Source: Deltaproteobacteria bacterium (GTDB lineage: Bacteria > Desulfobacterota > Dissulfuribacteria > Dissulfuribacterales > QOAL01). From it: 39,374 nucleotides of DNA. The stretch is taken from assembly GCA_015489365.1 (NCBI GenBank), contig WFZW01000232.1:1-39374 (forward strand). The letters run 5' to 3'. Shown piece by piece: positions 3,497 to 39,374 of this stretch; the stretch's first letter is position 1; each line of letters opens with the position of its first letter. A program made the translations under genes and the position numbers. Below the pieces are notes generated by a model. The model was not told the DNA's origin, ran no database searches, and saw nothing but the letters and a program-made list of their open reading frames with translations.

Positions 3497-5113
3497 TCAA
3501 GGCCGATCCTTATAGGCCTTAGGATTTATGCCGTATTTGTTTATTTTGTAATTTATGATGCGAAGACTTGTATCCAGTAGCTTGGCAGCCTTGGTCTGGT
3601 TGCCCTTGGTCTCGACCAGTGCCTCGATTATGAGTTCCTTTTCAAACATCGCAACGCCCTCGGCAAGGGAACGCATGGTTCTGCCTTTTTCTGAACAATC
3701 CTCAGAAACCTGAAGATTCGGGGGGAGGTGATGGATCCTGAGAACGTCCTCATCGCATACCAATATGGCCCGTTCGATACAGTTTTGCAATTCTCTCACG
3801 TTACCAGGCCAATGATAACGCATGAGGCAATCGATGGCAGGGGCTGATATGCGTTTGATAGGTTTGTTGTTTTCCTTTGCAAACCTTTCCATGAAATGTT
3901 CTGCCAGCAGCAGCAGATCTGTACGTCTCTCCCTCAGGGGTGGAAGATAGATGGGGAACACATTGAGTCTGTAATAGAGGTCCTCCCTGAACTGCCCGTT
4001 TTCCATGGCCTCTTCCAAATTTTTATTGGTTGCGGCAATGATCCGGACATTACACTTGATGCTTCGTGCAGAACCAAGCCGTTGGAATTCTTTTTCCTGG
4101 ATGACATGTAATAACTTCACCTGCACTGCATGGGGCAGGTCCCCAATCTCGTCCAGAAAGATAGTTCCTCCCTGGGCCAGTTCGAACCTGCCCTTTTTCA
4201 GGCTGCTTGCCCCGGTAAAGGCGCCCTTTTCGTGGCCAAAAAGCTCACTTTCTATCAGCGTCTCTGGAAGGGCTGAGCAATTGACCATTATAAATGGCTT
4301 TGATTTTCGACGGCTGTTGAAATGAATGGCCTTTGCTATCATGGACTTTCCGGTGCCGCTTTCTCCACGCAACAATACGGTGGCATTACTACCGGCAACC
4401 CTTAACACCATGTCGAACACCTCTTGCATCCGGCTGGATTTGCCAATGAGATTGCCAACATGGTATTTCTCTGCCAGGGCTCTGCGAAGCGTCTTGTTCT
4501 CGTTTAAAAGGGATTCCTTCTCGGCGTTTGCTGCTTGCAACTTGCTTACTGACAGGGCCAAGAGCCCGCTGATAATGGTCAACAGGCGCAGGTCCGATTC
4601 AAAGGATGCATCATCACTAAAGGGCCTGTCCACACTGAGCGCACCGATGGTTTCATTATCATGCTTGATGGGCACACATATAAAGGATGTATCCTGCTTG
4701 CGGGCCCTGCCCCTGCTACGGGTCCTGTTCAGAAACCTGGGATCTTCACCAATCCTTGGTATCACCAGGGCTTCGCCTGTGGCTACTACACGGCCTGTAA
4801 TCCCCTCCCCTAACTTGTAACGCCCCCTTCGCCTTGCCTCTGCAGACAATCCATGGGCCACCTCGATCTGAAGCTCAGAGGTGCCTGGCTTCAATATGCT
4901 TATGGTTCCCCGGGTCATGCCCATTCGGGAGGCCAGAATATTCATGACGTCCTTCAAGGCAGCCCGGAGATTCAACGTGCTGGAAAGCGCCTTGGTAACC
5001 TCGTAAAGACAACTTAACTCCTCCAGTTCGCGATGCCTCGGATCCAGGAGGGATGAGGTTCCAGCGCTGGATGATTCCTTTTCTAAACCTGTGTTATGCA
5101 CTAAGCCTTTCAT
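3497..5113 (-). CDS. NifA-type sigma-54 enhancer-binding regulator
   Basis: A 538-aa activator of sigma-54 RNA polymerase with three parts. Residues ~28-195 are a GAF sensor with the stretch RRRGRYKLGEGITGRVV and FICVPIK...IGALSVDRPF, which is typical of NifA. Residues ~218-450 are the AAA+ motor, with Walker A GESGTGKS (250-257), the sigma-54 contact loop GAFTGA (297-302) and FLDEIGDLP. Residues ~490-535 are a Fis-type helix-turn-helix (KGNQTKAAKLLDTSLRIINYK). Architecture and sequence are closest to NifA, but no nif gene is present, so its target may differ. The start overlaps the end of thi4 by 20 nt, so translation is probably coupled. The GAF ligand is unknown. Confidence 0.9.
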   Translation of the reverse strand: MKGLVHNTGLEKESSSAGTSSLLDPRHRELEELSCLYEVTKALSSTLNLRAALKDVMNILASRMGMTRGTISILKPGTSELQIEVAHGLSAEARRRGRYKLGEGITGRVVATGEALVIPRIGEDPRFLNRTRSRGRARKQDTSFICVPIKHDNETIGALSVDRPFSDDASFESDLRLLTIISGLLALSVSKLQAANAEKESLLNENKTLRRALAEKYHVGNLIGKSSRMQEVFDMVLRVAGSNATVLLRGESGTGKSMIAKAIHFNSRRKSKPFIMVNCSALPETLIESELFGHEKGAFTGASSLKKGRFELAQGGTIFLDEIGDLPHAVQVKLLHVIQEKEFQRLGSARSIKCNVRIIAATNKNLEEAMENGQFREDLYYRLNVFPIYLPPLRERRTDLLLLAEHFMERFAKENNKPIKRISAPAIDCLMRYHWPGNVRELQNCIERAILVCDEDVLRIHHLPPNLQVSEDCSEKGRTMRSLAEGVAMFEKELIIEALVETKGNQTKAAKLLDTSLRIINYKINKYGINPKAYKDRP

Positions 5114-6421: not shown

Positions 6422-6552
6422 AATAAGACCCATTGAGGGATACATTGGCAAGTAGCGCATGGGAAAGACCGCCCATGAAAAATTTGCCAGGACCGAGCAC
6501 CTTCGGGTATTTTATTCATGAAATTCCAGAGACAACACCAAACAGACCTCGA

Positions 6553-6640
6553 TTTACCATGAAAATACAGCGCCTATGGGCTGTATCTTCATGTATTGGG
6601 GGTGCGACACCAAGGTACGGGCCGCATATGGAAGTTTAGA
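6553..6640 (-). repeat. family A repeat, full copy abutting the fbp ribosome binding site
   Basis: A near-consensus copy in reverse orientation (TTTACCATGAAAATACAG ... GCATATGGAAGTTTAGA). It ends at the base before AAGGAGGAGG, the fbp Shine-Dalgarno, so it must lie in the fbp leader or contain its promoter. The ATACAG/CTGTAT stem is intact around a changed 10-nt loop (CGCCTATGGG). Confidence 0.92.
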
Positions 6641-12493: not shown

Positions 12494-12512
12494 CCGATCA
12501 TAGATTTGATCC

Positions 12513-12595
12513 TAAACTTCCATGCGGCCCGTACCTTGGTGCCGCCCCCCAATACATGAAGATACAGCCCATAGACTCTGTATTTTTATGGTAAA
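12513..12595 (+). repeat. family A repeat, full copy
   Basis: Near-consensus: TAAACTTCCATGCGG, ACCTTGGTGCCGC, CAATACATGAAG, ATACAG - loop - CTGTAT, then TTTTTATGGTAAA. It begins 19 nt after the radical SAM stop codon, in the forward orientation, so it would be transcribed as the 3' end of that operon. Confidence 0.93.
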
Positions 12596-13606: not shown

Positions 13607-13630
13607 GAATCCCTTTATCCCCTTTTTATC

Positions 13631-13713
13631 TAAACTTCCATGCGGCCCGTACCTTGGTGCCGCACCCCAATACATGAAGATACAGCCCATAGACTCTGTA
13701 TTTTCACGGTAAA
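13631..13713 (+). repeat. family A repeat, consensus copy
   Basis: The best single example of family A. In order: TAAACTTCCATGCGGCCCGT; ACCTTGGTGCCGCACCCC; AATACATGAAG; ATACAG, 10-nt loop, CTGTAT; TTTTCACGGTAAA. GCGGC (from TGCGGCC) can pair with GCCGC, giving a first hairpin; ATACAG/CTGTAT is the second. It starts 25 nt after the 285-aa gene. Confidence 0.95.
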
Positions 13714-15629: not shown

Positions 15630-15713
15630 TAAACTTCCATGCAGCCCGTACCTTGGTGCCGCACCCCCAATACATGAAGATACAGCCCTTAAACCCTGTA
15701 TTTTCACGGTAAA
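15630..15713 (+). repeat. family A repeat, full copy
   Basis: TAAACTTCCATGCAGCCCGT, ACCTTGGTGCCGCACCCCC, ATACAG - CCCTTAAACC - CTGTAT, TTTTCACGGTAAA. The loop differs from other copies while the stem does not. It lies midway in the divergent gap between the Memo-family and biotin-ligase-like genes. The CACATAGGGACAG directly after it may be a family-B remnant. The rest of the gap (15517-15842) shows nothing else. Confidence 0.93.
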
Positions 15714-22644: not shown

Positions 22645-22770
22645 ACAATCCTGAAGGTGTCTCCCGAATATGTATTGGAATTTCATGGTTGGGGAGAATC
22701 TGTACAATAAAATGCCCCTATTCACCCGACGCCCGATGCCTTGATAAGGCCCTCGGCCTAGAGAAAAATC

Positions 22771-22851
22771 TAAACTTCCATGCGGCCCACACCTTGGTGC
22801 CGCCCCCAATACATGAAGATACAGCCCATAGACCCTGTATTTTCACGGTAA
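22771..22851 (+). repeat. family A repeat, full copy touching the prfB stop codon
   Basis: TAAACTTCCATGCGGCCCAC, ACCTTGGTGCCGC, ATACAG - CCCATAGACC - CTGTAT, TTTTCACGGTAA; the next base begins the prfB stop codon. It separates prfB from the efflux operon and, read with prfB, is the immediate 3' end of its mRNA in reversed orientation. On that strand the element is followed by TTTAGATTTTTC. Confidence 0.94.
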
Positions 22852-23992
22852 TCAAGCGGCCTTCTGGAGATAGCCCTCGATGAATCTGTCTAGGTTGCCA
22901 TCAAGGACATCATTTACATTGCCCACCTCTATGCCCGAGCGATGGTCCTTGATCATCTGGTATGGATGCAATACATAGGAACGGATCTGGCTACCCCAGG
23001 CGATCTCTTTCTTTTCGCCGTGCATCTTTTGCTTCTCCTCATTCCTTTTTGCCTCCTCCAGCTCATACAGCCTGGCCTTAAGTATCTTCATGGCTATGGC
23101 CTTGTTCTTGTGTTGGGAACGCTCGTTCTGGCACTGGACCACTATGCCTGTAGGGATATGCGTGATCCTCACAGCAGAACTCGTCTTGTTGACATGCTGG
23201 CCTCCGGCCCCGCTGGCCCTGTACGTATCTATCCGCAGGTCCTTTTCATCTATGTCGATCTCTATGGTATCGTCTATCTCAGGAGCCACAAATACCGATG
23301 CGAAGGAGGTATGGCGTCTGCCCGATGCATCGAATGGTGAGATACGCACCAGTCGGTGGACCCCTGCCTCTGACTTAAGATAACCGTAGGCAAAGGGGCC
23401 CTTGACCAGAAAGGTCGCCCCCTTTATTCCTGCCTCATCTCCGGGCATATAATCTAGCATGTCCACTTCGAACCCGCGGCGTTCGCACCATCGCATGTAC
23501 ATCCTGAGCAACATCTCCGCCCAGTCCTGTGCCTCTGTTCCGCCTGCACCAGCGTGTATCGTAACGATGGCATTGTTCTTGTCATGCGGCCCTGAAAGAA
23601 GCCTTGCCAGCTCGGCATGCCGCACATCCTTGTCGAGCCTGGCCAAATCCCTCTTCACCTCTGCCAAGGTCGCCGCATCATCCTCCTCCTGTGCCATTTC
23701 AAGTAGCAAAGAAAGCTCCTCAAAACGCTCTTCCAGCCTAGACAGGGTCTCCTTTTGATCCAACAACAGGGCCCTTTCCTGCAGGATGCCCTTGGACTTT
23801 GGATCCTCCCAGAAGCCTGGCTGTAACATCTGCTTGTCTATCTCGGCAAGGCGTATATCCGGTTGAAGCCGATCAAAGATAACCTCGCAGGAGCTCAAGC
23901 CTCCGATGTATGTCACGGATATATTCCTTGAGTTCCTGTATATTGGCCGCAGTAAAATCCTTTCCTTTAATTTTCGTATCTAAGGTATCCAT
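22852..23992 (-). CDS. prfB: peptide chain release factor 2, with programmed +1 frameshift
   Basis: RF2 releases finished peptides at UAA and UGA codons. Translation starts at ATG 23992 (MDTLDTKIKGKDFTAANIQE...), reads to RRLELLRGYL and meets TGA at 23873-23875. A +1 shift at CTT TGA then gives RGYL-DRLQPDIRLAEID and continues to 22852, for 379 aa in all. Motifs in the shifted part: the peptidyl-transferase loop GAGGTEAQDWAEM with GGT..., GAGGQHVNKTSSAVRITHIP (the GGQ motif) and the codon-recognition region with SPF (VRISPFDASGRRHTSFAS). The shift site is listed separately. Annotation programs that ignore it will report a truncated gene from 23916. Confidence 0.96.
23873..23884 (-). other. 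prfB: prfB programmed +1 frameshift site
   Basis: The minus strand reads GAGG-TTAT-CTT-TGA-TC. The slippery Leu codon CTT is followed by in-frame TGA (23875-23873), with an SD-like GAGG just upstream. This is the known RF2 autoregulatory layout: low RF2 favours the shift and so more RF2. Confidence 0.93.
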
Positions 23993-24114: not shown

Positions 24115-25728
24115 CTAACGAATTGACAGGAAAACCGCCTTAATACAACAACCCACTGAAAGCAACAGAAAGACTACAATAATCCAGGCATCCCCATACC
24201 TTGCAAACAAGGTAATATCATTACGAAGTTTGGCAACATGGGTAATATAGGTCCTCACGAAAATGGGTGTCCTCCCATATTCCTCACCCCACGGGGCAAT
24301 TATCTCGCTTACCCCTGTATTGGCCGCCCTTATGAGCCATCTCCTTGACTCCACCGCCCTGAATACCGCCATGTCTGCATGTTGAAAGGGGGCACCGGTT
24401 TTCCCAAACCAGGCGTCATTGGTTATGACAGCCAATAGATTTGCCCCATCACGGACACTTTTCCTGGACAACCCTGGGAAAATACTTTCAAAACAGATCA
24501 ATATGCCTAGGCGCAGCCGCTGCCAAACCAAAGGCCTGTCACTTGTTCCAGGAACAAACTCACCTGCCGAAGGCAACAGGCCCTTGACCCACCAGGTAAT
24601 CCATTTCCAGGGTAGATATTCACCAAAGGGAACAAGGTGTCGTTTGTTGTATTGCCCATGTACCTTGCCATCGGGGGCAAGAAGAAATGCACTGTTGAGG
24701 TAGCTTACTTCATTGCCAGGGCTAATCAGATAGGCAGGACTTCCAACGAGCAGCGCGCACCGATGTTTTATAGCAAAGTCAAGGAGTTCCTCTTTCCTCT
24801 TTCCGGATTCCTGAAAATAGAAGGGCATTGCGGTCTCGGGCCATACCAACAATCTTGGTATGTCCCTTTTGAGATCCCGGAGCGCCTGGATACTCAGTTT
24901 TTCGTAGATACCAATGGTTTTCGAGGCAAAAGATGGGGCCCATTTTTGATCCTGTGGGATTGCTCCCTGAATGGCTGCCACCCCTAGGGATCGATACCTT
25001 ACTTCACTAAGGTGAACCCTATCCATCGACCACAAACCGTAACCTGCCATGCCTCCGAGCACAACTACTACAGCCCCGGCACTAACCGCCACCTGCTTCC
25101 AAGGTATAAAGGGATGAATATAATTTTGCCTGGTAGAACCTGCGACCCGCAACAAGGAAGGCACACCAACCATCAGGGAGATGCCTAGCAGACACAGGTT
25201 TATGAATACCACCAGAAAGCTAATGCCGTATGGCCCCCACAGATCAGCGGTCTGGATAAGTACAGGGATTGGGGAAAGGCCGTAGGCAAGCAGTCCCCAT
25301 GGAAATCCACTGAATAGATGCCCCCTTATCCACTCAAGAAGCACCCAAAGGGCAGAAAGGCCTAAGGCAACAAAGGGACTCCAGCCCAAGCGGGAGCTCA
25401 CAAAACCGGAGATCCCGGCCCATATGGCCGGGTAGATAGCAAGATAACATACCAGAAGGCCGACCACCGGCCATGACGCCCATGCAGGTAGATGTCCATA
25501 TCTAGAAATGGTAGGAACGATCCACCATATCAGAACCCCAAAAAAACCAACCCCTGATATGAAGCCATATTTTCCAGCCTCTCTCCAGTTCCTTCCCCAT
25601 ACCACCCATAGCAAGGGTACCAACCCACAAAAGACCCCAAAACTCCAATAAAATGGGGCAAAGCTGGTGCCAAGAATGAGGCCTGACAATAATGACGCTA
25701 GGTAAGGCACCTTTTGTACACCCGGCAT
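24115..25728 (-). CDS. lnt: apolipoprotein N-acyltransferase
   Basis: Adds the third acyl chain to the N-terminal cysteine of lipoproteins at the inner membrane. The 537-aa product has about seven N-terminal membrane segments (to ~235), a periplasmic nitrilase-like domain and a last membrane segment. The catalytic triad is visible: Glu298 in LLVWPETAMPF, a Lys in YNKRHLVPFGEYLP and a Cys in GILICFESIFPGLSRK. It follows the HsdR-N-like gene by 45 nt on the same strand and precedes prfB by ~120 nt. The gap to prfB holds a GCAGG/CCTGC inverted repeat followed by a run of eight A on the minus strand, of no clear role. Confidence 0.95.
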   Translation of the reverse strand: MPGVQKVPYLASLLSGLILGTSFAPFYWSFGVFCGLVPLLWVVWGRNWREAGKYGFISGVGFFGVLIWWIVPTISRYGHLPAWASWPVVGLLVCYLAIYPAIWAGISGFVSSRLGWSPFVALGLSALWVLLEWIRGHLFSGFPWGLLAYGLSPIPVLIQTADLWGPYGISFLVVFINLCLLGISLMVGVPSLLRVAGSTRQNYIHPFIPWKQVAVSAGAVVVVLGGMAGYGLWSMDRVHLSEVRYRSLGVAAIQGAIPQDQKWAPSFASKTIGIYEKLSIQALRDLKRDIPRLLVWPETAMPFYFQESGKRKEELLDFAIKHRCALLVGSPAYLISPGNEVSYLNSAFLLAPDGKVHGQYNKRHLVPFGEYLPWKWITWWVKGLLPSAGEFVPGTSDRPLVWQRLRLGILICFESIFPGLSRKSVRDGANLLAVITNDAWFGKTGAPFQHADMAVFRAVESRRWLIRAANTGVSEIIAPWGEEYGRTPIFVRTYITHVAKLRNDITLFARYGDAWIIVVFLLLSVGCCIKAVFLSIR

Positions 25729-30063: not shown

Positions 30064-31422
30064 ATGGCATCTATATTGGTGGTAGACGACGAGCCCAAGA
30101 TCCGCCACATTCTGAAAATCATGTTGGGCTTCAAGGGGCATGAGGTCCAGGAGGCCTCCGATGGGGAACAGGCCCTGAGCATGATAAATAATGGTGCATA
30201 TGACCTTGTGATAACGGATATTCGTATGCCCAGGCTTGATGGGCTGGAACTCCTCGATGAGATCCAGAAGATGGAGATCCCCTGTCCAGTAATATTCATC
30301 ACCGCCTTTGCCACGGTGGATACGGCTGTGGAGGCCATGAAAAAGGGCGCTGTTGATTACATAACCAAGCCCTTTGAAGAAAACAGAATCATCCTGACGG
30401 TTGAAAAGGCGCTTGGCATATCGGAATTATTGAAAGAAAACATACAACTAAAGGAGGAACTGGAAAGATATTCCGAAAACGAGGAGCTGGTCTGTGTATC
30501 CGATGCCATGAAAAAACTCATGGACATGGCGATAAAGGTGGCTGCCAAGGGTGAAACGACCGTGCTTATTACGGGTGAAAGCGGTACAGGAAAGGAGGTA
30601 ATCGCCAGATTCATCCATGATAATAGTCCCAGGAAGGATGGCCGATTTGTAGCGGTCAATTGCGCCGCCATCACGGATAACCTGGTGGAAAGTATACTTT
30701 TTGGTCACGAAAAGGGCTCATTTACCGGTGCTGACAAACGAAAACAGGGGGTCTTCGAGTATGCCACAGGGGGAACGCTATTTCTGGACGAAATCGGTGA
30801 CTTGCCACTGGAGGCGCAGGCAAAGCTGCTGAGGGCATTGCAGGAAAAGGTAATCCAGAGGGTAGGGGGCAACAGGCCAATAAAGGTAGATGCAAGGGTC
30901 GTGTGTGCTACCAATCAGGATTTGGAAGGCCTGGTGGAGAAGGGGCGTTTCAGACAGGATCTATTCTTCAGGATCAATGTATTTCCCCTCCACATTCCCC
31001 CCTTGAGGGAAAGGAAGGAAGCGATCATACCCCTGGCCGAACACTTCATTGAAAAATTTATGGAGAGACGGTGTCAGGGGCCGTACCTGACCCAGGGAGC
31101 AAAGAGGATCCTCATGGAACACACGTGGCCCGGAAACGTCAGGGAACTGGCAAATGCCATAGAAAGGGCCGTAATCCTTGCTGGTGCCCCTCCTATCTCG
31201 GCTGATACATTGTCATTCTTGAAAAATTCAAGGACCCAACGTGAATACACCGAACAGTTGAAGCTTCCGCCTGAAGGGTTAAACCTTGAAGCGCTCGAGA
31301 AGGACCTAATCCGGCAGGCATTGCAGGCCACAGGCCACAATCAAAGCGCTGCTGCCAGGTTGCTCGGGCTTACGAGGTCCAAGTTGAGAACCAGGGTGAA
31401 ACAATTGGAGAACGGATCTTGA
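30064..31422 (+). CDS. NtrC-family sigma-54-dependent response regulator
   Basis: A 452-aa activator. The receiver (1-120) has acidic pocket D8/D9, phospho-acceptor D52 in VITDIRMPRLDG, and K102 in YITKPFEENRI. The AAA+ domain has Walker A GESGTGKE (171-178), a GSFTGA contact loop (218-223; the consensus is GAFTGA), and TLFLDEIGDLPLEAQAK. The C-terminal Fis-type HTH contains HNQSAAARLLGLTRSKLRTR. CAAGGAG precedes ATG 30064. It is probably phosphorylated by the kinase just upstream. The TonB receptor gene overlaps its stop. The only clear sigma-54 promoter I found is far away at 36652, so its target is not established. Confidence 0.95.
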   Translation: MASILVVDDEPKIRHILKIMLGFKGHEVQEASDGEQALSMINNGAYDLVITDIRMPRLDGLELLDEIQKMEIPCPVIFITAFATVDTAVEAMKKGAVDYITKPFEENRIILTVEKALGISELLKENIQLKEELERYSENEELVCVSDAMKKLMDMAIKVAAKGETTVLITGESGTGKEVIARFIHDNSPRKDGRFVAVNCAAITDNLVESILFGHEKGSFTGADKRKQGVFEYATGGTLFLDEIGDLPLEAQAKLLRALQEKVIQRVGGNRPIKVDARVVCATNQDLEGLVEKGRFRQDLFFRINVFPLHIPPLRERKEAIIPLAEHFIEKFMERRCQGPYLTQGAKRILMEHTWPGNVRELANAIERAVILAGAPPISADTLSFLKNSRTQREYTEQLKLPPEGLNLEALEKDLIRQALQATGHNQSAAARLLGLTRSKLRTRVKQLENGS

Positions 31423-33467
31423 AACCTTTTAAAAGGCCGATGTACTTCAGAGTCACCTCCTTTCCTCTAGGGGCAATTGCCATTGCAGTGGCGCTCTCCC
31501 TGATCGCCCCTTGGGATTGTCTTGCAGTGGATACCTCACTGCTTTTCGTTGGTGAAGATCTTTCCGTGCTCACAATAGCCTCAAGACACGCAGAGACCCC
31601 GAAACAGGCACCTGCCATCGCCCAGGTCATAACAAGGGAGGAGCTTGAGAAAAATGGCATAAGAACCCTTGGGGAAGCGCTTTCAATACTTCCAGGCTTC
31701 TACCTCTCTCCCAGGGAATGGGGTACGCAGCCCTATCTTAGGGGTCTCCCGGACAGTATCCTGTTTCTCTACGACTCCGTACCATTGACCTCAGACAGTA
31801 CCAAATCCATTCACCCGCTGGATGAAGAACTGTCCCTTGCAGCCATCAAACGAATAGAGGTTATCAGGGGACCAGGTTCAGTATTATGGGGGCCTGACGC
31901 CTTTGCTGGAATAGTCAACATCGTCCCTGAAAGAGGGCGGGATGTCGAGGGCATAAGGCTAAGCGCCAGGGCCGGCACACCAAACCGCGAAAAAAGCCTC
32001 AGCCTCAATTGGGGCAGGGCCACAGGGATATGGGAGGGCTTCCTTTCCCTGACAGCCACCAGCATAAGGCCCCTTGAAAATCGCTATAATGTGGTAAGAT
32101 TTTCCAGCAGTGCCTCCTCCACCCCACTTCCCCCGCAGAAACGTCTTGGGCTTTCCCACGTTGACGATTCAAAATACCTCGAGGCGATATTCAACCTATC
32201 ATGGCAGGATCGGCTCCGCCTTTCCGGGCGATGGTCCAATTCTGAACGAAACTATGTGTTGGGCGAGACGAGTTCCGATCTAAAATGGTCGGGTAAACGA
32301 AAGGCCCCTTTCCGTTTCGTTCGTATCGAGACCCAACGTCCCATGGGACATTATAACCTACGCCTCAACGCCTATTACAACGAACTCAACTATAGGGAAA
32401 AACAGGTGGACATATCATGGCGCCAGAAAAGCCACCTTTCCTATGCGGAACTCCTACTAGACAGGGAGCTGTGGGACGCCAAGGGCATCTTTACCCTGGG
32501 GGCATCGTACCGCTATGACCGGATAACCGGGGCGGTAATATCCAGGACATACCTGCCGGATTTTCTCGAACCTGACAATATCTTCTTTACTCCAACGGTT
32601 AATCAGGAGGATTACAATACTTACCTGACTTCCTATTTTGGCCAGATCAAACGTCACTGGAGGAGCGTGGACGCTTGGTTGGGCCTCAGGTTGGACGACC
32701 ACAGCCAGTACAGCCAGACCATAAGCCACAATCTTGGTCTGAGCTGGCATCCGGGTAGAACCTGGTTCTTGAAGCTCCTCTATGGAACCGCCTTTAGAAC
32801 CCCCTATAACCAGCAACTAATAAATGCCAAGGACCTTGATCCAGAACAGATCGAAAACTTTAGCGCCCAATTTTCCTGGCGAAGGAGCAAGGCCCTGGGG
32901 TTTTCAGTAACGGCCTTCTGGAACAAGATATTTCACCACATCAATGAAGATCCCTATGGTGGTCTTTCAAGGCCAGGGGCAGAGGACATCTATGGGCTCG
33001 AACTCGAAGGAAGCTGGCAGGTAAAGCCATGGCTGCATCTATGGGCAAATGGCAGCCTGTATTCCCAGTATGGAGACAAGGAACGTTACAAGGTACTCAA
33101 TTTCATAGATATCAGCACAATGGAGGAGCACTATTCCTCATGGAAGATACCCTTTGACACAGGACCAAGGAACCTCTTTAATGCTGGTGCCGACTGGAAT
33201 ATCTCCGATCGGCTCAACCTCTCCCTTAGACTCAATTACAGTGGTACCAGGACTTACTACTATAAAAAAGGGACCGTACACTATTGTGCACCTGCCCTGT
33301 GGCTTGTCGATCTTACGGCAACGGCCAAAAACGTGATGTATGATGGCCTGAATCTGAGACTGGCTTTAAAGAATCTTTTTGACAGAAAATATTCTGTACC
33401 AGGCACATACAGCCCGATCAAAGGGGCCCCATTCCAGGCCTATATCAAGATCGATTTCAAATTCTAA
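31419..33467 (+). CDS. TonB-dependent outer-membrane receptor
   Basis: A 682-aa receptor. It has a signal peptide (SFPLGAIAIAVALSLIAPWD CLA, cleaved near AVD), a possible TonB box (DLSVLTIASR), a plug domain (APAIAQVITREELEKNGIRT, TLGEALSILPGFYL, YLRGLPDSILFLYDSVPL, IKRIEVIRGPGSVLWGPDAF) and a beta-barrel ending in KIDFKF with the C-terminal aromatic residue needed for insertion. TonB receptors import siderophores, cobalamin, haem or sugars; the ligand is unknown. The TTG start overlaps the regulator's stop (TTGA) and has GGAG 8 nt upstream; ATG 31440 is an alternative. The stop TAA is the first three bases of a family-A repeat. Confidence 0.94.
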   Translation: MKPFKRPMYFRVTSFPLGAIAIAVALSLIAPWDCLAVDTSLLFVGEDLSVLTIASRHAETPKQAPAIAQVITREELEKNGIRTLGEALSILPGFYLSPREWGTQPYLRGLPDSILFLYDSVPLTSDSTKSIHPLDEELSLAAIKRIEVIRGPGSVLWGPDAFAGIVNIVPERGRDVEGIRLSARAGTPNREKSLSLNWGRATGIWEGFLSLTATSIRPLENRYNVVRFSSSASSTPLPPQKRLGLSHVDDSKYLEAIFNLSWQDRLRLSGRWSNSERNYVLGETSSDLKWSGKRKAPFRFVRIETQRPMGHYNLRLNAYYNELNYREKQVDISWRQKSHLSYAELLLDRELWDAKGIFTLGASYRYDRITGAVISRTYLPDFLEPDNIFFTPTVNQEDYNTYLTSYFGQIKRHWRSVDAWLGLRLDDHSQYSQTISHNLGLSWHPGRTWFLKLLYGTAFRTPYNQQLINAKDLDPEQIENFSAQFSWRRSKALGFSVTAFWNKIFHHINEDPYGGLSRPGAEDIYGLELEGSWQVKPWLHLWANGSLYSQYGDKERYKVLNFIDISTMEEHYSSWKIPFDTGPRNLFNAGADWNISDRLNLSLRLNYSGTRTYYYKKGTVHYCAPALWLVDLTATAKNVMYDGLNLRLALKNLFDRKYSVPGTYSPIKGAPFQAYIKIDFKF

Positions 33468-33548
33468 ACTTCCATGCGGCCCGTACCTTGGTGCCGCACC
33501 CCTAGGCATGAAAACATAGCCCTTATTCAGGGGCTATTTTCACGGTAA
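33465..33548 (+). repeat. family A repeat with compensatory hairpin change; supplies a stop codon
   Basis: TAAACTTCCATGCGG begins at the TAA stop of the TonB receptor gene. The first hairpin region is consensus. In the second, ATAGCCC (33516-33522) pairs with GGGCTAT (33531-33537): seven pairs, with several bases changed on both arms from ATACAG/CTGTAT. It ends TTTTCACGGTAA. Confidence 0.93.
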
Positions 33549-33762: not shown

Positions 33763-33841
33763 ATAATCACATACCAGAGTCTTATAGGCTCTATCTTCAT
33801 GTACCGGGGTACAGCACCAGGGTACGGACCGCATGGAAGTT
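33762..33841 (-). repeat. family A repeat, diverged copy next to the TPR gene stop
   Basis: Reverse orientation: CATAATCACATACCAGAG, CTCTATCTTCATGTACC, CACCAGGGTACGGACC, GCATGGAAGTT. Stem AGAG/CTCT replaces ACAG/CTGT. It ends 4 nt before the stop codon of the TPR gene and faces the copy at 33465 across the hairpin-dense tract. Confidence 0.8.
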
Positions 33842-36458: not shown

Positions 36459-36470
36459 AGGATAACCTCC

Positions 36471-36556
36471 TAAACTTCCATGCGGCCCGTACCTTGGTGC
36501 CGCACCCCAAGTGCATGAAGATACAGCCTATATGGGTACTGTATTTTCACGGTAAA
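36471..36556 (+). repeat. family A repeat, full copy
   Basis: TAAACTTCCATGCGGCCCGT, ACCTTGGTGCCGCACCCC, ATACAG - 12-nt loop - CTGTAT, TTTTCACGGTAAA. The loop is longer and can add an inner CC/GG pair. It ends 12 bp before the palindrome upstream of the sigma-54 promoter. Confidence 0.93.
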
Positions 36557-36568
36557 ATGAACATCATG

Positions 36569-36582
36569 CGGCAGACCTGCCG
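36569..36582. promoter_or_regulatory. candidate upstream activating site for the sigma-54 promoter
   Basis: CGGCAG-AC-CTGCCG is a perfect 14-bp palindrome about 83 bp upstream of the -24 element, a usual distance for an enhancer-binding-protein site. A second palindrome, GGTTT-C-AAACC, lies at 36588-36598. Neither fits the NifA site TGT-N10-ACA. I saw no second copy of the 14-bp site in the window. Confidence 0.55.
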
Positions 36583-36651
36583 GATTAGGTTTCAAACCAT
36601 ATCGATTGGATCAGGCAGGGCTATGGGACAAAATGTTCAGAATAGAGTATC

Positions 36652-36667
36652 TGGCACAACTTTTGCG
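36652..36667 (+). promoter_or_regulatory. sigma-54 (RpoN) promoter for the ParA-LC7 gene
   Basis: TGGCAC-AACTT-TTGCG matches the sigma-54 consensus TGGCAC-N5-TTGC exactly, with GG at 36653-36654 and GC at 36665-36666, ten bases apart. It predicts a start near 36678 and a ~105-nt leader to the ATG at 36783. It would need an enhancer-binding protein; two are encoded in this window. Confidence 0.82.
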
Positions 36668-36782
36668 ATAATTTTTTATCTCTGTATGATGATGTCGGGT
36701 GTTATCGGAGACAACAACCATTCTTGTCGGAATAGCAGCTTACTCTTGTAAATTTTTAATATCTTAAGGTCACAGGGAACCG

Positions 36783-37994
36783 ATGCCAGAGTCAAAAATC
36801 GTAACTATCGGCAGCCAGAAAGGGGGCGTTGGCAAAACCACAGTAGTACTCAACCTTGGAATCGGCCTGGGCAGGATGGGTTGGAAGGTCCTATTGGTGG
36901 ATGGAGACCCCCAGGGTGGCTTGGGGATCTCCTGCTCCCGGGCTAAATACCACGGCCCAGGGCTGATAGAGATACTCATGGGCAAGGCTGATAAATCCCA
37001 GGCCGTCCAGGAACTCTCCGATTCCATAGCCCTTTGCAGGATTGGAAGCAAAGCCCCGAATGAAATCCTTGTCTATGAAAAAAAAGCGATTAATGGCAAC
37101 CTGGGGAGGCTGATTCGAGATATTGCTAGTGACTTCGATTGCGCACTGGTCGACACCCCGGCAGGGACCGGAACCGTAACAAGGGCCTTCCTGGAAATAA
37201 GCGATAGGGTAGTGCCTGTCATCAATTGCCTGGCTGGCACTGTCAGATCCATGCCGAGATTCATAGCCCTTACCGATTGGGTAAAGGAAAAGATAAATCC
37301 TGACCTCAGACTGGGTGGTGTTGTCATAAACATGTTTAACGAAAAAGACCCATCTGAAGAAAGGATCTGCAAGTACCTGCAATCAAGGCTTCATAAGGAC
37401 TTCTTCTACAATACGATAATCCCTAGGGACAAGGCCTTTGACACGGCCCATACCAGGGCAATGCCGGTGTCCCTACTGCCAGAAGGCAAAGGGGCTTCAA
37501 GGCACTTCGAGGCACTGGCAGAAGAATTCATCAGACGTGATGCTGCCATGGCAAGGACAAGTCCAGGCACTCATGCCACTACCACCAGTGCCATGCACGA
37601 TGAAATAAAGGCCACGGACAGCTCCCAGGCATTCCAGGCAGATCCGTTTGAGGGCCTTCTCTCATCCATATGCTGCCAGGCCGGATTCAATGCCTTAGTA
37701 CTTGCAGATGCCATGGGTTTCCCCATATCTGGACATAACAGCCCAACGTATGTGGACGAAATGGCTGCATTTGCTCCGGTACTTGGGGATTCCCTGGAAA
37801 AGGCCCGTGCCATCCTGGGACTTGATCAGGCAGAGAGCATTGTCCTCGAGGCAAGTGGCGGGGAGAGGCTTGCGCTTAGGATGTTCAAGATGCAGGAGGA
37901 AACATACTATCTGCTTGCCAGGTGCCAACCCGGACTGGATGCAGAAAGTGAGCTGGAGCTTGCAGTGGAAAAAATAAAGGCAGTCCTGTCATAA
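36783..37994 (+). CDS. ParA/MinD-type ATPase fused to a roadblock/LC7-like domain
   Basis: A 403-aa two-part protein. Residues 1-250 are a ParA-type ATPase: deviant Walker A KGGVGKTT (13-20) with signature lysines K13 and K18, A' motif VDGDPQGG (39-46) and Walker B ALVDTPAGTG (D124). A polar linker (~252-288, with HATTTSAMHDEIKATDSS) joins it to residues ~289-403. That part looks like roadblock/LC7: FEGLLSSICCQAGFNALVLA, DAMGFPISG, LGDSLEKARAILG, SIVLEASGGERLALRMFKMQ, YYLLARC. ParA ATPases position cargo; LC7 domains dimerise and often regulate small GTPases. No ParB or parS is visible, so plasmid-type partition is unlikely. Expression is probably sigma-54 dependent. Confidence 0.85.
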   Translation: MPESKIVTIGSQKGGVGKTTVVLNLGIGLGRMGWKVLLVDGDPQGGLGISCSRAKYHGPGLIEILMGKADKSQAVQELSDSIALCRIGSKAPNEILVYEKKAINGNLGRLIRDIASDFDCALVDTPAGTGTVTRAFLEISDRVVPVINCLAGTVRSMPRFIALTDWVKEKINPDLRLGGVVINMFNEKDPSEERICKYLQSRLHKDFFYNTIIPRDKAFDTAHTRAMPVSLLPEGKGASRHFEALAEEFIRRDAAMARTSPGTHATTTSAMHDEIKATDSSQAFQADPFEGLLSSICCQAGFNALVLADAMGFPISGHNSPTYVDEMAAFAPVLGDSLEKARAILGLDQAESIVLEASGGERLALRMFKMQEETYYLLARCQPGLDAESELELAVEKIKAVLS

Positions 37995-38050
37995 AAGGCC
38001 ATGCTACCCAAAAATTACCGCGCATTCCTACAACATTTACATCCTGGATA

Positions 38051-38110
38051 GGGCTGTATCTTCATGTATTGGGGGGCGGCACCAAGGTACGGGCCGCATG
38101 GAAGTTTAGA
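38051..38110 (-). repeat. family A repeat, truncated copy
   Basis: Reverse orientation; the plus strand reads GGGCTGTATCTTCATG, GGCACCAAGGTACGGGCCGC, ATGGAAGTTTAGA. The 3' end of the element, including one arm of the second hairpin and the TTTTCACGGTAAA end, is missing. It lies between the convergent ParA-LC7 and 207-aa genes. Confidence 0.88.
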
Positions 38111-38122
38111 CTTGACATAACA

Positions 38123-38746
38123 CTAGCGTTTACCATCTACACCGATAAAATAGCAACACATGTAGTCATCAAGGGCCTTTTCCACGGTATGCCTGGAAAT
38201 CCCTGCCTCATTGAGCCATCTGCTGGCGATTCCCTTCTCTCCGCTACCAGATCTACATCCAAGCTGGTATATGTCCACCTTCTTTCTGCCTATCTTCACC
38301 TTATCTCCAAGAGCGCTTCTGAGGGACTGATGGACTGCACAAAACGGGCTCACCCCGGCTCCCTCCCCTATCCTGTACCTGGTGGTAACCATGCTGGGTT
38401 TATTGAATTCCCTTGTAATGTCGCTGTAGCCATCCGGAAGGCTCCCGAAGACCTCCCGATAGTTGGCAATAGAAGGGGCAAAGGGACAAAATTTCAAACC
38501 GAACAATGAATCACCCAGATGGGTTGCCCTGCCTTCTATCTGTGCTATCGGATTAGAGGCCCCTTCTATGGAGGCGATAAATTCCTCAAGACTATCAAAT
38601 TCCACCTCATCTATCATATTAGCCGCATTCAAGGCATTTCTTATGAGTACCCCCTTTGCGTTTGCAGCACCACTTTGGGCAATGAGGACCTTTATCATGT
38701 CAAGAAAACTGATGTGGGCGATATCAAGAATCTTTCCTTCGACCAT
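38123..38746 (-). CDS. unrecognised 207-aa protein paired with an LC7 gene
   Basis: I do not recognise the family. It is soluble, with an N-terminal SFLDMIKVLIAQSGAANAKG segment that looks helical. Five cysteines lie in notable settings: C87 (LKFCPFAP), C136 (SPFCAVHQSL), C164 (YQLGCRSGSG) and C197-C198 (YMCCYFIG), with H139 near. This could be a metal or cluster site, or a hydrophobic-ligand pocket; that is speculation. AGGAG lies 8 nt before ATG 38746. It follows the LC7 gene by 43 nt on the same strand, so the two are likely one operon, convergent with the ParA-LC7 gene. Confidence 0.7.
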   Translation of the reverse strand: MVEGKILDIAHISFLDMIKVLIAQSGAANAKGVLIRNALNAANMIDEVEFDSLEEFIASIEGASNPIAQIEGRATHLGDSLFGLKFCPFAPSIANYREVFGSLPDGYSDITREFNKPSMVTTRYRIGEGAGVSPFCAVHQSLRSALGDKVKIGRKKVDIYQLGCRSGSGEKGIASRWLNEAGISRHTVEKALDDYMCCYFIGVDGKR

Positions 38747-38789
38747 TTTGTACTCCTAGTAGCGTTCAGGGCCTGTGCCCGGCCCAATT

Positions 38790-39149
38790 CTAGATAGCTG
38801 CGACTTCCTGGATCTCCTTAGCGTACTTCCTGATCTTCAGCCTGATCATCCCAAGGTTGGAGCCCTTATCAGCAACTATGACAAGGAAGGCCTCATCCCC
38901 TACTGGGGCCAGCATGACAGGGCCGTTTTCATATTCGATCATACTCAGGGATAAAGGTCCCTTATCCAATTGGGCCCCCATGGCCTCCGAGGCCCCAAAA
39001 CCACTGGAGGCTATGGCCCCCACCATTTCAGAATCCACCCCTGCCATGGTCACGTCTTCCACCAGGAATCCGTCACGCCCCACTAGGCAGGCGGTATTGA
39101 CTCCCGGTATGTTGGTAAATTCCATTAACAAATCCTTTAATGTTGACAT
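38790..39149 (-). CDS. roadblock/LC7 domain protein
   Basis: A 119-aa protein covering one roadblock/LC7 domain: MSTLKDLLMEFTNIPGVNTA, CLVGRDGFLVEDVTMAGVD, MVGAIASSGFGASEAMGAQL, LSLSMIEYENGPVMLAPVGD, EAFLVIVADKGSNLGMIRLK. Bacterial members such as MglB form homodimers and act on Ras-like GTPases; no such GTPase gene is in the window. ATG 39149 has AAGGAG 8 nt upstream and matches the natural domain start. The frame stays open upstream to the window edge (listed separately), so this may instead be the end of a larger protein. Confidence 0.88.
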   Translation of the reverse strand: MSTLKDLLMEFTNIPGVNTACLVGRDGFLVEDVTMAGVDSEMVGAIASSGFGASEAMGAQLDKGPLSLSMIEYENGPVMLAPVGDEAFLVIVADKGSNLGMIRLKIRKYAKEIQEVAAI

Positions 39150-39374
39150 GGCCTTCTCCTTTGTATTTGTAGAATCTAATGGATGGACACAGACGCCTTC
39201 ATCTATCCGCCCCGCGCCTTCATCCGGGGCAACCGCAAGACTTGAAGATTCAAAATCTATCTCAAGATCATCGATATCGGTGCCGTCTCCCACATCCGGC
39301 CTGCCCGGTTGCATTCCATCTTCATCATCCCTTCTTACGCCTTCTATCAAAAGTGCGGCTACCGTCGTATGGAT
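39150..39374 (-). other. in-frame open stretch upstream of the LC7 gene, possible partial CDS
   Basis: All 75 codons up to the window edge are open in the LC7 frame, while the other two minus frames close within 50 nt of the edge. The peptide is acidic and linker-like (GTDIDDLEIDFESSSLAVAP, DEGAGRIDEG) with many GNN codons, as in coding DNA. It may be the linker of a larger protein ending in LC7, with an internal start at 39149. Its own upstream part is outside the window. Confidence 0.45.

Follow-up and report, generated by a model that had tools for sequence, protein, structure and literature searches.

The window analysed here is contig C232, a stretch of 39,374 nucleotides from a genome (G000) of 2.49 Mb in 239 contigs. 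Three genes adjoin one another at 36783-39374, as they do in related loci. The first, on the plus strand at 36783-37994, encodes a ParA-family ATPase of 403 residues (Pfam AAA_31, E 2.8e-22, and CbiA) with a C-terminal Roadblock-like domain. Convergent with this parA gene is a minus-strand gene for a conserved protein of 207 residues (38123-38746), called protein H in this manuscript. The third, an LC7 (Roadblock) gene on the minus strand (38790-39374; Robl_LC7, E 3e-17), runs off the end of the contig; the remaining 5' part is found on contig C192 (6-176) and is 89% identical to that of the sister species, G001.

The N-terminal part of the ParA protein matches Soj (VIA Z 31.7, 242 residues, rmsd 2.0). 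FleN/FlhG, the MinD-like ATPase that partners the activator FleQ, shares the ParA/MinD fold, and the FleN structure 5j1j_B also aligns to the window protein (VIA Z 26.4, 240 residues, rmsd 3.0), but Soj aligns better and the window ParA has the additional Roadblock-like domain at its C-terminus. Roadblock/LC7 proteins have the order alpha-beta-beta-alpha-beta-beta-beta-alpha. In the AlphaFold model, residues 290-402 of ParA follow the order helix-strand-strand-helix-strand-strand-strand-helix, with a long second helix, so that the predicted order is that of a Roadblock domain. Pfam gave no LC7 match in this C-terminal part at E 0.001, and the fold matches listed for the protein were filled by the ATPase domain, with no Roadblock structure among them, and barely probed the C-terminal part.

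Protein H matches no Pfam and no NCBIfam family. Its model is confident (pLDDT 87) and has no significant match in the PDB; the best Foldseek matches, to phenol-sensor domains and BcsD, had E values of 0.12 or worse and were rejected as too weak. A search of 84,980 species, with one genome each, recovered protein H at 32 loci, with 56-86% identity among the 31 of 32 that were aligned. Cysteines 87, 164, 197 and 198 are invariant in the alignment. Within the phylum of the window species, 4 of 395 genomes encode the protein at a cut-off of 1e-20.

A sigma-54 promoter core, TGGCACAACTTTTGC (-24 TGGCAC, five nucleotides, -12 TTGC), occupies 36652-36666 on the plus strand. As the preliminary description had claimed, the match is exact, with no mismatches and the correct GG-N10-GC spacing. 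The parA ATG at 36783 begins 116 nt past the end of the core, and from the usual geometry of the -12 element transcription would presumably start at 36677-36679 on the plus strand. When the 223-nt leader was shuffled 20,000 times with dinucleotides preserved, a fraction of 0.00025 of the shuffles contained a perfect core. Across the whole genome the perfect core occurs 12 times, against about 4.8 expected from base composition alone, and the mirrored control pattern not once. RpoN is encoded in the genome (Sigma54_DBD, E 1.5e-62). The predicted structure of the leader RNA is nothing special (z = 1.2).

The 12 perfect cores are a mixed set. One precedes nifH and is kept in the sister species, one comes after an activator gene, and one overlaps an open reading frame in its final 21 nt. 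Three lie within coding genes, namely the SSB gene, a 366-residue frame and a 537-residue frame; the last of these, at 25658-25672 on the minus strand, is the other perfect core of the window. (The names SSB and nifH were assigned by reading the sequence.) Four of the cores that lie outside gene bodies, on C36, C70, C167 and C227, align to a TGGCAY core in the sister genome, and so does the core in the SSB gene. Separately, we observed at locus L146 (G000:C36, 276-290) and at L185 (G001:C33) a conserved sigma-54 core directly past an activator gene. Beyond the core come a strong GAAGGCCTTCTTGG-type hairpin and a T run, with no evident open reading frame. This element looks like a small RNA that would be under sigma-54 control.

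The usual gene order in the 32 loci is a histidine kinase, an NtrC-type activator, a receiver-DUF4388-LC7 protein, protein H (about 205 residues) and often a ParA-LC7 protein. Relatives of ParA-LC7 occur in at least 12 of the loci, a lower bound because some contigs stop soon after the gene for H; the parA and H genes share a strand in four of these (L082, L084, L095 and L096) and lie on opposite strands in eight. The arrangement of kinase, NtrC-type activator and receiver-DUF4388-LC7 gene in L085, L086, L094, L102 and others was also seen to be common to metagenome-assembled genomes titled Nitrospirae/Nitrospirota and Deltaproteobacteria/Desulfobulbales.

Strict cores, defined as 9 of 10 positions or better with the GG and GC kept, precede the LC7 gene in 11 of 26 loci. 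Within these loci they stand before 3 of 159 other genes and before none of the 60 genes for protein H, kinase or ParA. Of the 10 loci titled Nitrospirae, Nitrospirota or Thermodesulfovibrio with an LC7 frame longer than 250 residues, 9 carry a core that matches at 9 or more positions, the exception being L107. The last position of the -12 element is A or T in some loci, and the pattern TGGCAY-N5-TTGH, which was set after the strict-core results had been seen, precedes 17 of 26 LC7 genes and none of 219 other genes. Where an NtrC-type gene lies directly upstream of the LC7 gene, the proportion is 15/18. Palindromes of the form GGTCA..TGACC or GTTCA..TGAAC, a pattern picked after the sequences had been viewed, occur in 10 of 26 LC7 leaders compared with 12 of 217 other genes; none was found before parA of the window. 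Sigma-54 control of the Roadblock/ParA module, as predicted from these cores, is thus recurrent.

The core before parA has a different distribution. In the relatives, all 12 ParA orthologs lack such a core in front of their genes, the 78%-identical sister included, so the parA core is known in one species only. The leader of the window parA does not align with that of the sister at the core, and similarity starts only beside the ATG. These observations would also fit a core that arose by chance or has decayed, with parA transcribed instead from a sigma-70 promoter or another one. A sigma-70-like element (TTGCGA-16-TATGAT, 9 of 12 matches) does overlap the -12 box at 36663-36690 on the plus strand and is the main rival, and the perfect cores inside coding genes, at least 3 of the 12, have the look of chance matches. 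The leader contains just this one sigma-70-like site, however, where shuffled leaders average 1.3, whereas a perfect sigma-54 core is rare in the same kind of shuffles and the module has come repeatedly under apparent sigma-54 control elsewhere. We therefore regard a fortuitous or decayed core as unlikely, if worth keeping in mind, and the sigma-54 core as probably a real promoter.

The window lineage also differs on the LC7 side. G030 belongs to the same order as G000 and its sister G001; in all three genomes the LC7 protein begins with its DUF4388 part and has no receiver domain. The adjacent kinase and the NtrC-type activator of the module clades are absent from the window lineage. Close upstream of the G000 LC7 gene no core reaches 8 of 10, and in G001 none lies within 600 nt upstream of that gene. 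The parA core is therefore the only core of the module in the window species. Since cores on the LC7 side recur in the relatives and the window has its core only at parA, sigma-54 control has probably moved to parA.

The activators of the two genomes were placed in a tree. Sigma-54 activator domains (PF00158) gave 22 matches in G000, of which 20 entered the tree; none of these 20, and none of the 21 from G001, falls inside the two clades of module activators (7 and 12 members). The two activators encoded in the window, at 30064 and 3497, were considered as the module's own and ruled out by BLAST scores and the tree. Of the G000 activators, 19 of 20 pair with a G001 ortholog, both window activators included. 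The remaining one, L150 (G000:C110, 1111-2433, 440 residues), is the only G000 activator with no close G001 ortholog in the tree. As a lead, L150 is a candidate activator for the species-specific parA promoter.

Upstream of the core lies a perfect palindrome, CGGCAGACCTGCCG (36569-36582), whose arms CGGCAG and CTGCCG are separated by AC and which starts 83 bp before the core. Its letters are present as the preliminary description gave them, and it could be listed as a weak candidate for an activator site. The palindrome taken alone is not beyond chance: when the 92 nt separating the upstream repeat from the core are shuffled, 15% of the shuffles contain an inverted repeat with arms of at least 6 and a spacer of at most 10, and for the 230 nt upstream the figure is 45%. 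The perfect form has one copy in the genome, the window's own; forms with one mismatch occur in 5 further places, and those of the mirrored control in 2. As a regulon site it was rejected, there being no copy other than the window's own on a contig with a perfect core. The genome search that had been proposed for further CGGCAG-N2-CTGCCG sites upstream of sigma-54 promoters returned none, and the palindrome is near no other core. The sequences upstream of the parA core and of seven others among the 12 perfect cores were compared for CGGCAG/CTGCCG half sites and TGT-N10-ACA, and no site was shared. A reading as a terminator was also rejected, the stem being 5 bp and lacking a real T run.

The preliminary description had gone further, with a sigma-54 promoter and a palindrome bound by the regulator at 30064 or the one at 3497. 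The distance of 83 bp is plausible for such a site, and the ortholog of the 30064 activator is on the contig of the sister's module, about 7 kb from the sister parA. Against this, the sister keeps close orthologs of both activators and has neither palindrome nor core before its parA, both activators lie outside the clades of the module activators, and the palindrome itself is unique and unlike the palindromes near the module activator gene of the relatives. We consider this combined model very improbable. Sigma-54 control of parA, the part of it that stood, is backed by the core, RpoN, sites of the nifH type and the LC7 cores of the relatives; the palindrome as an activator site found no support.

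A dispersed intergenic repeat of about 84 nt has a copy (36470-36560, plus strand) that stops just short of the palindrome, in a leader with no homologous counterpart in the sister. An inverted copy on the minus strand (38051-38110) lies between the stop codons of parA and the protein H gene, and together the two copies give the appearance of a 41-nt inverted repeat flanking parA. We considered this as a mobile element and rejected it, the arms being two of about 143 dispersed copies. The repeat is often found directly past stop codons, in both orientations. Its copies in the window are at 161-235, 6549-6627, 12512-12595, 13630-13713, 15630-15713, 22769-22852, 33464-33547, 33787-33841, 36470-36560 and 38051-38110. 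With up to 3 mismatches allowed, its 24-nt core has 143 copies in the genome versus 4 in the sister. It has no Rfam match at the gathering threshold and looks like a lineage-specific expansion.

The orp operons, which hold MinD-type ATPases, are one known system to set beside parA. In Desulfovibrio vulgaris these divergent operons are under sigma-54 with the activator DVU2106 and IHF and are thought to position the septum (PMC3897727, whose main text contains neither "MinD" nor "ATPase"). In the account given there, the likeness lies in sigma-54 control of septum-positioning genes and in palindromic activator sites. The difference is that a dedicated activator and IHF sites have been shown for orp, whereas the parA leader has no IHF-like site at one mismatch or fewer between palindrome and core.

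The Desulfovibrio sigma-54 promoters are described in PMC4641369 with the taxon motif tGGcacg / tTGCt, and regulator genes are reported there to be co-localized with their targets in many cases. Motifs given as figures aside, CGGCAG and CTGCCG are absent from its main text. The parA core has the same -24 and -12 elements and spacing as these promoters, is intergenic and on the correct strand, and belongs to a genome with RpoN and activators; it differs in that it is not kept in the sister and that the site upstream is a candidate. The preliminary description had called sigma-54 control of a ParA gene unusual. This was overstated: according to PMC12316311, the predicted sigma-54 regulons of three classes (gamma-Proteobacteria, Desulfobacteria and Desulfuromonadia) are enriched for COG1192 and COG0455, in a ParA/MinD context. 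It is thus not very uncommon for ParA/MinD ATPases to be under sigma-54. The parA switch looks real but of a known type, and for the window species it is an ordinary sigma-54 promoter prediction.

A further comparison is with the receiver-DUF4388-LC7 operons of the 32 loci. The LC7, H and ParA-LC7 proteins are encoded side by side in the window too, but the window lineage has neither the adjacent kinase and activator nor the receiver domain, and its core stands before parA rather than before the LC7 gene. The literature searched, most subscription journals being outside it, yielded no paper devoted to this module; DUF4388 is nearly absent from the same literature, occurring in one paper that, judging by its title, concerns another subject.

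Our preferred reading is that the core is a genuine sigma-54 (RpoN) promoter of the ParA-LC7 gene and that the module's ancestral control, on the LC7 side, has been relocated to parA under another activator. We put its probability at about 0.7. Promoter activity, the identity of the activator and the history of loss and then relocation are what we infer, along the following lines. Ancestrally, the neighbouring histidine kinase and the NtrC-type activator would probably have controlled the receiver-DUF4388-LC7 gene through a sigma-54 promoter in front of it. The window lineage would have lost this LC7-side control, and sigma-54 control would then have relocated to parA, answering to another activator. 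There, RNA polymerase with sigma-54 would sit on the -24/-12 core in a closed complex. Opening would await remodelling by an ATP-driven enhancer-binding activator, for which the palindrome may or may not be the site; ParA would therefore be made only under that activator's signal. A different promoter would serve the genes for LC7 and H on the far side of the convergent junction. The fullest version of this history, in which the kinase-NtrC-sigma-54 module of Nitrospirota and Desulfobacterota was rewired here with loss of kinase, activator and receiver, a move of the promoter from LC7 to parA and a switched ATPase, is possible, with odds somewhat short of even.

That the system responds to an environmental cue, as had been suggested, may fairly be inferred from sigma-54 control. 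What the comparison adds is the recurrent sigma-54/NtrC circuit in the relatives and its apparent rewiring in the window lineage. If the preferred reading is true, a positional module consisting of a ParA-type ATPase, Roadblock proteins and a conserved protein would be made on demand and not constitutively. At 18 of the 26 loci whose LC7 gene is long, the probable activator could then be pointed out, which would give a direct handle on the function of the module.
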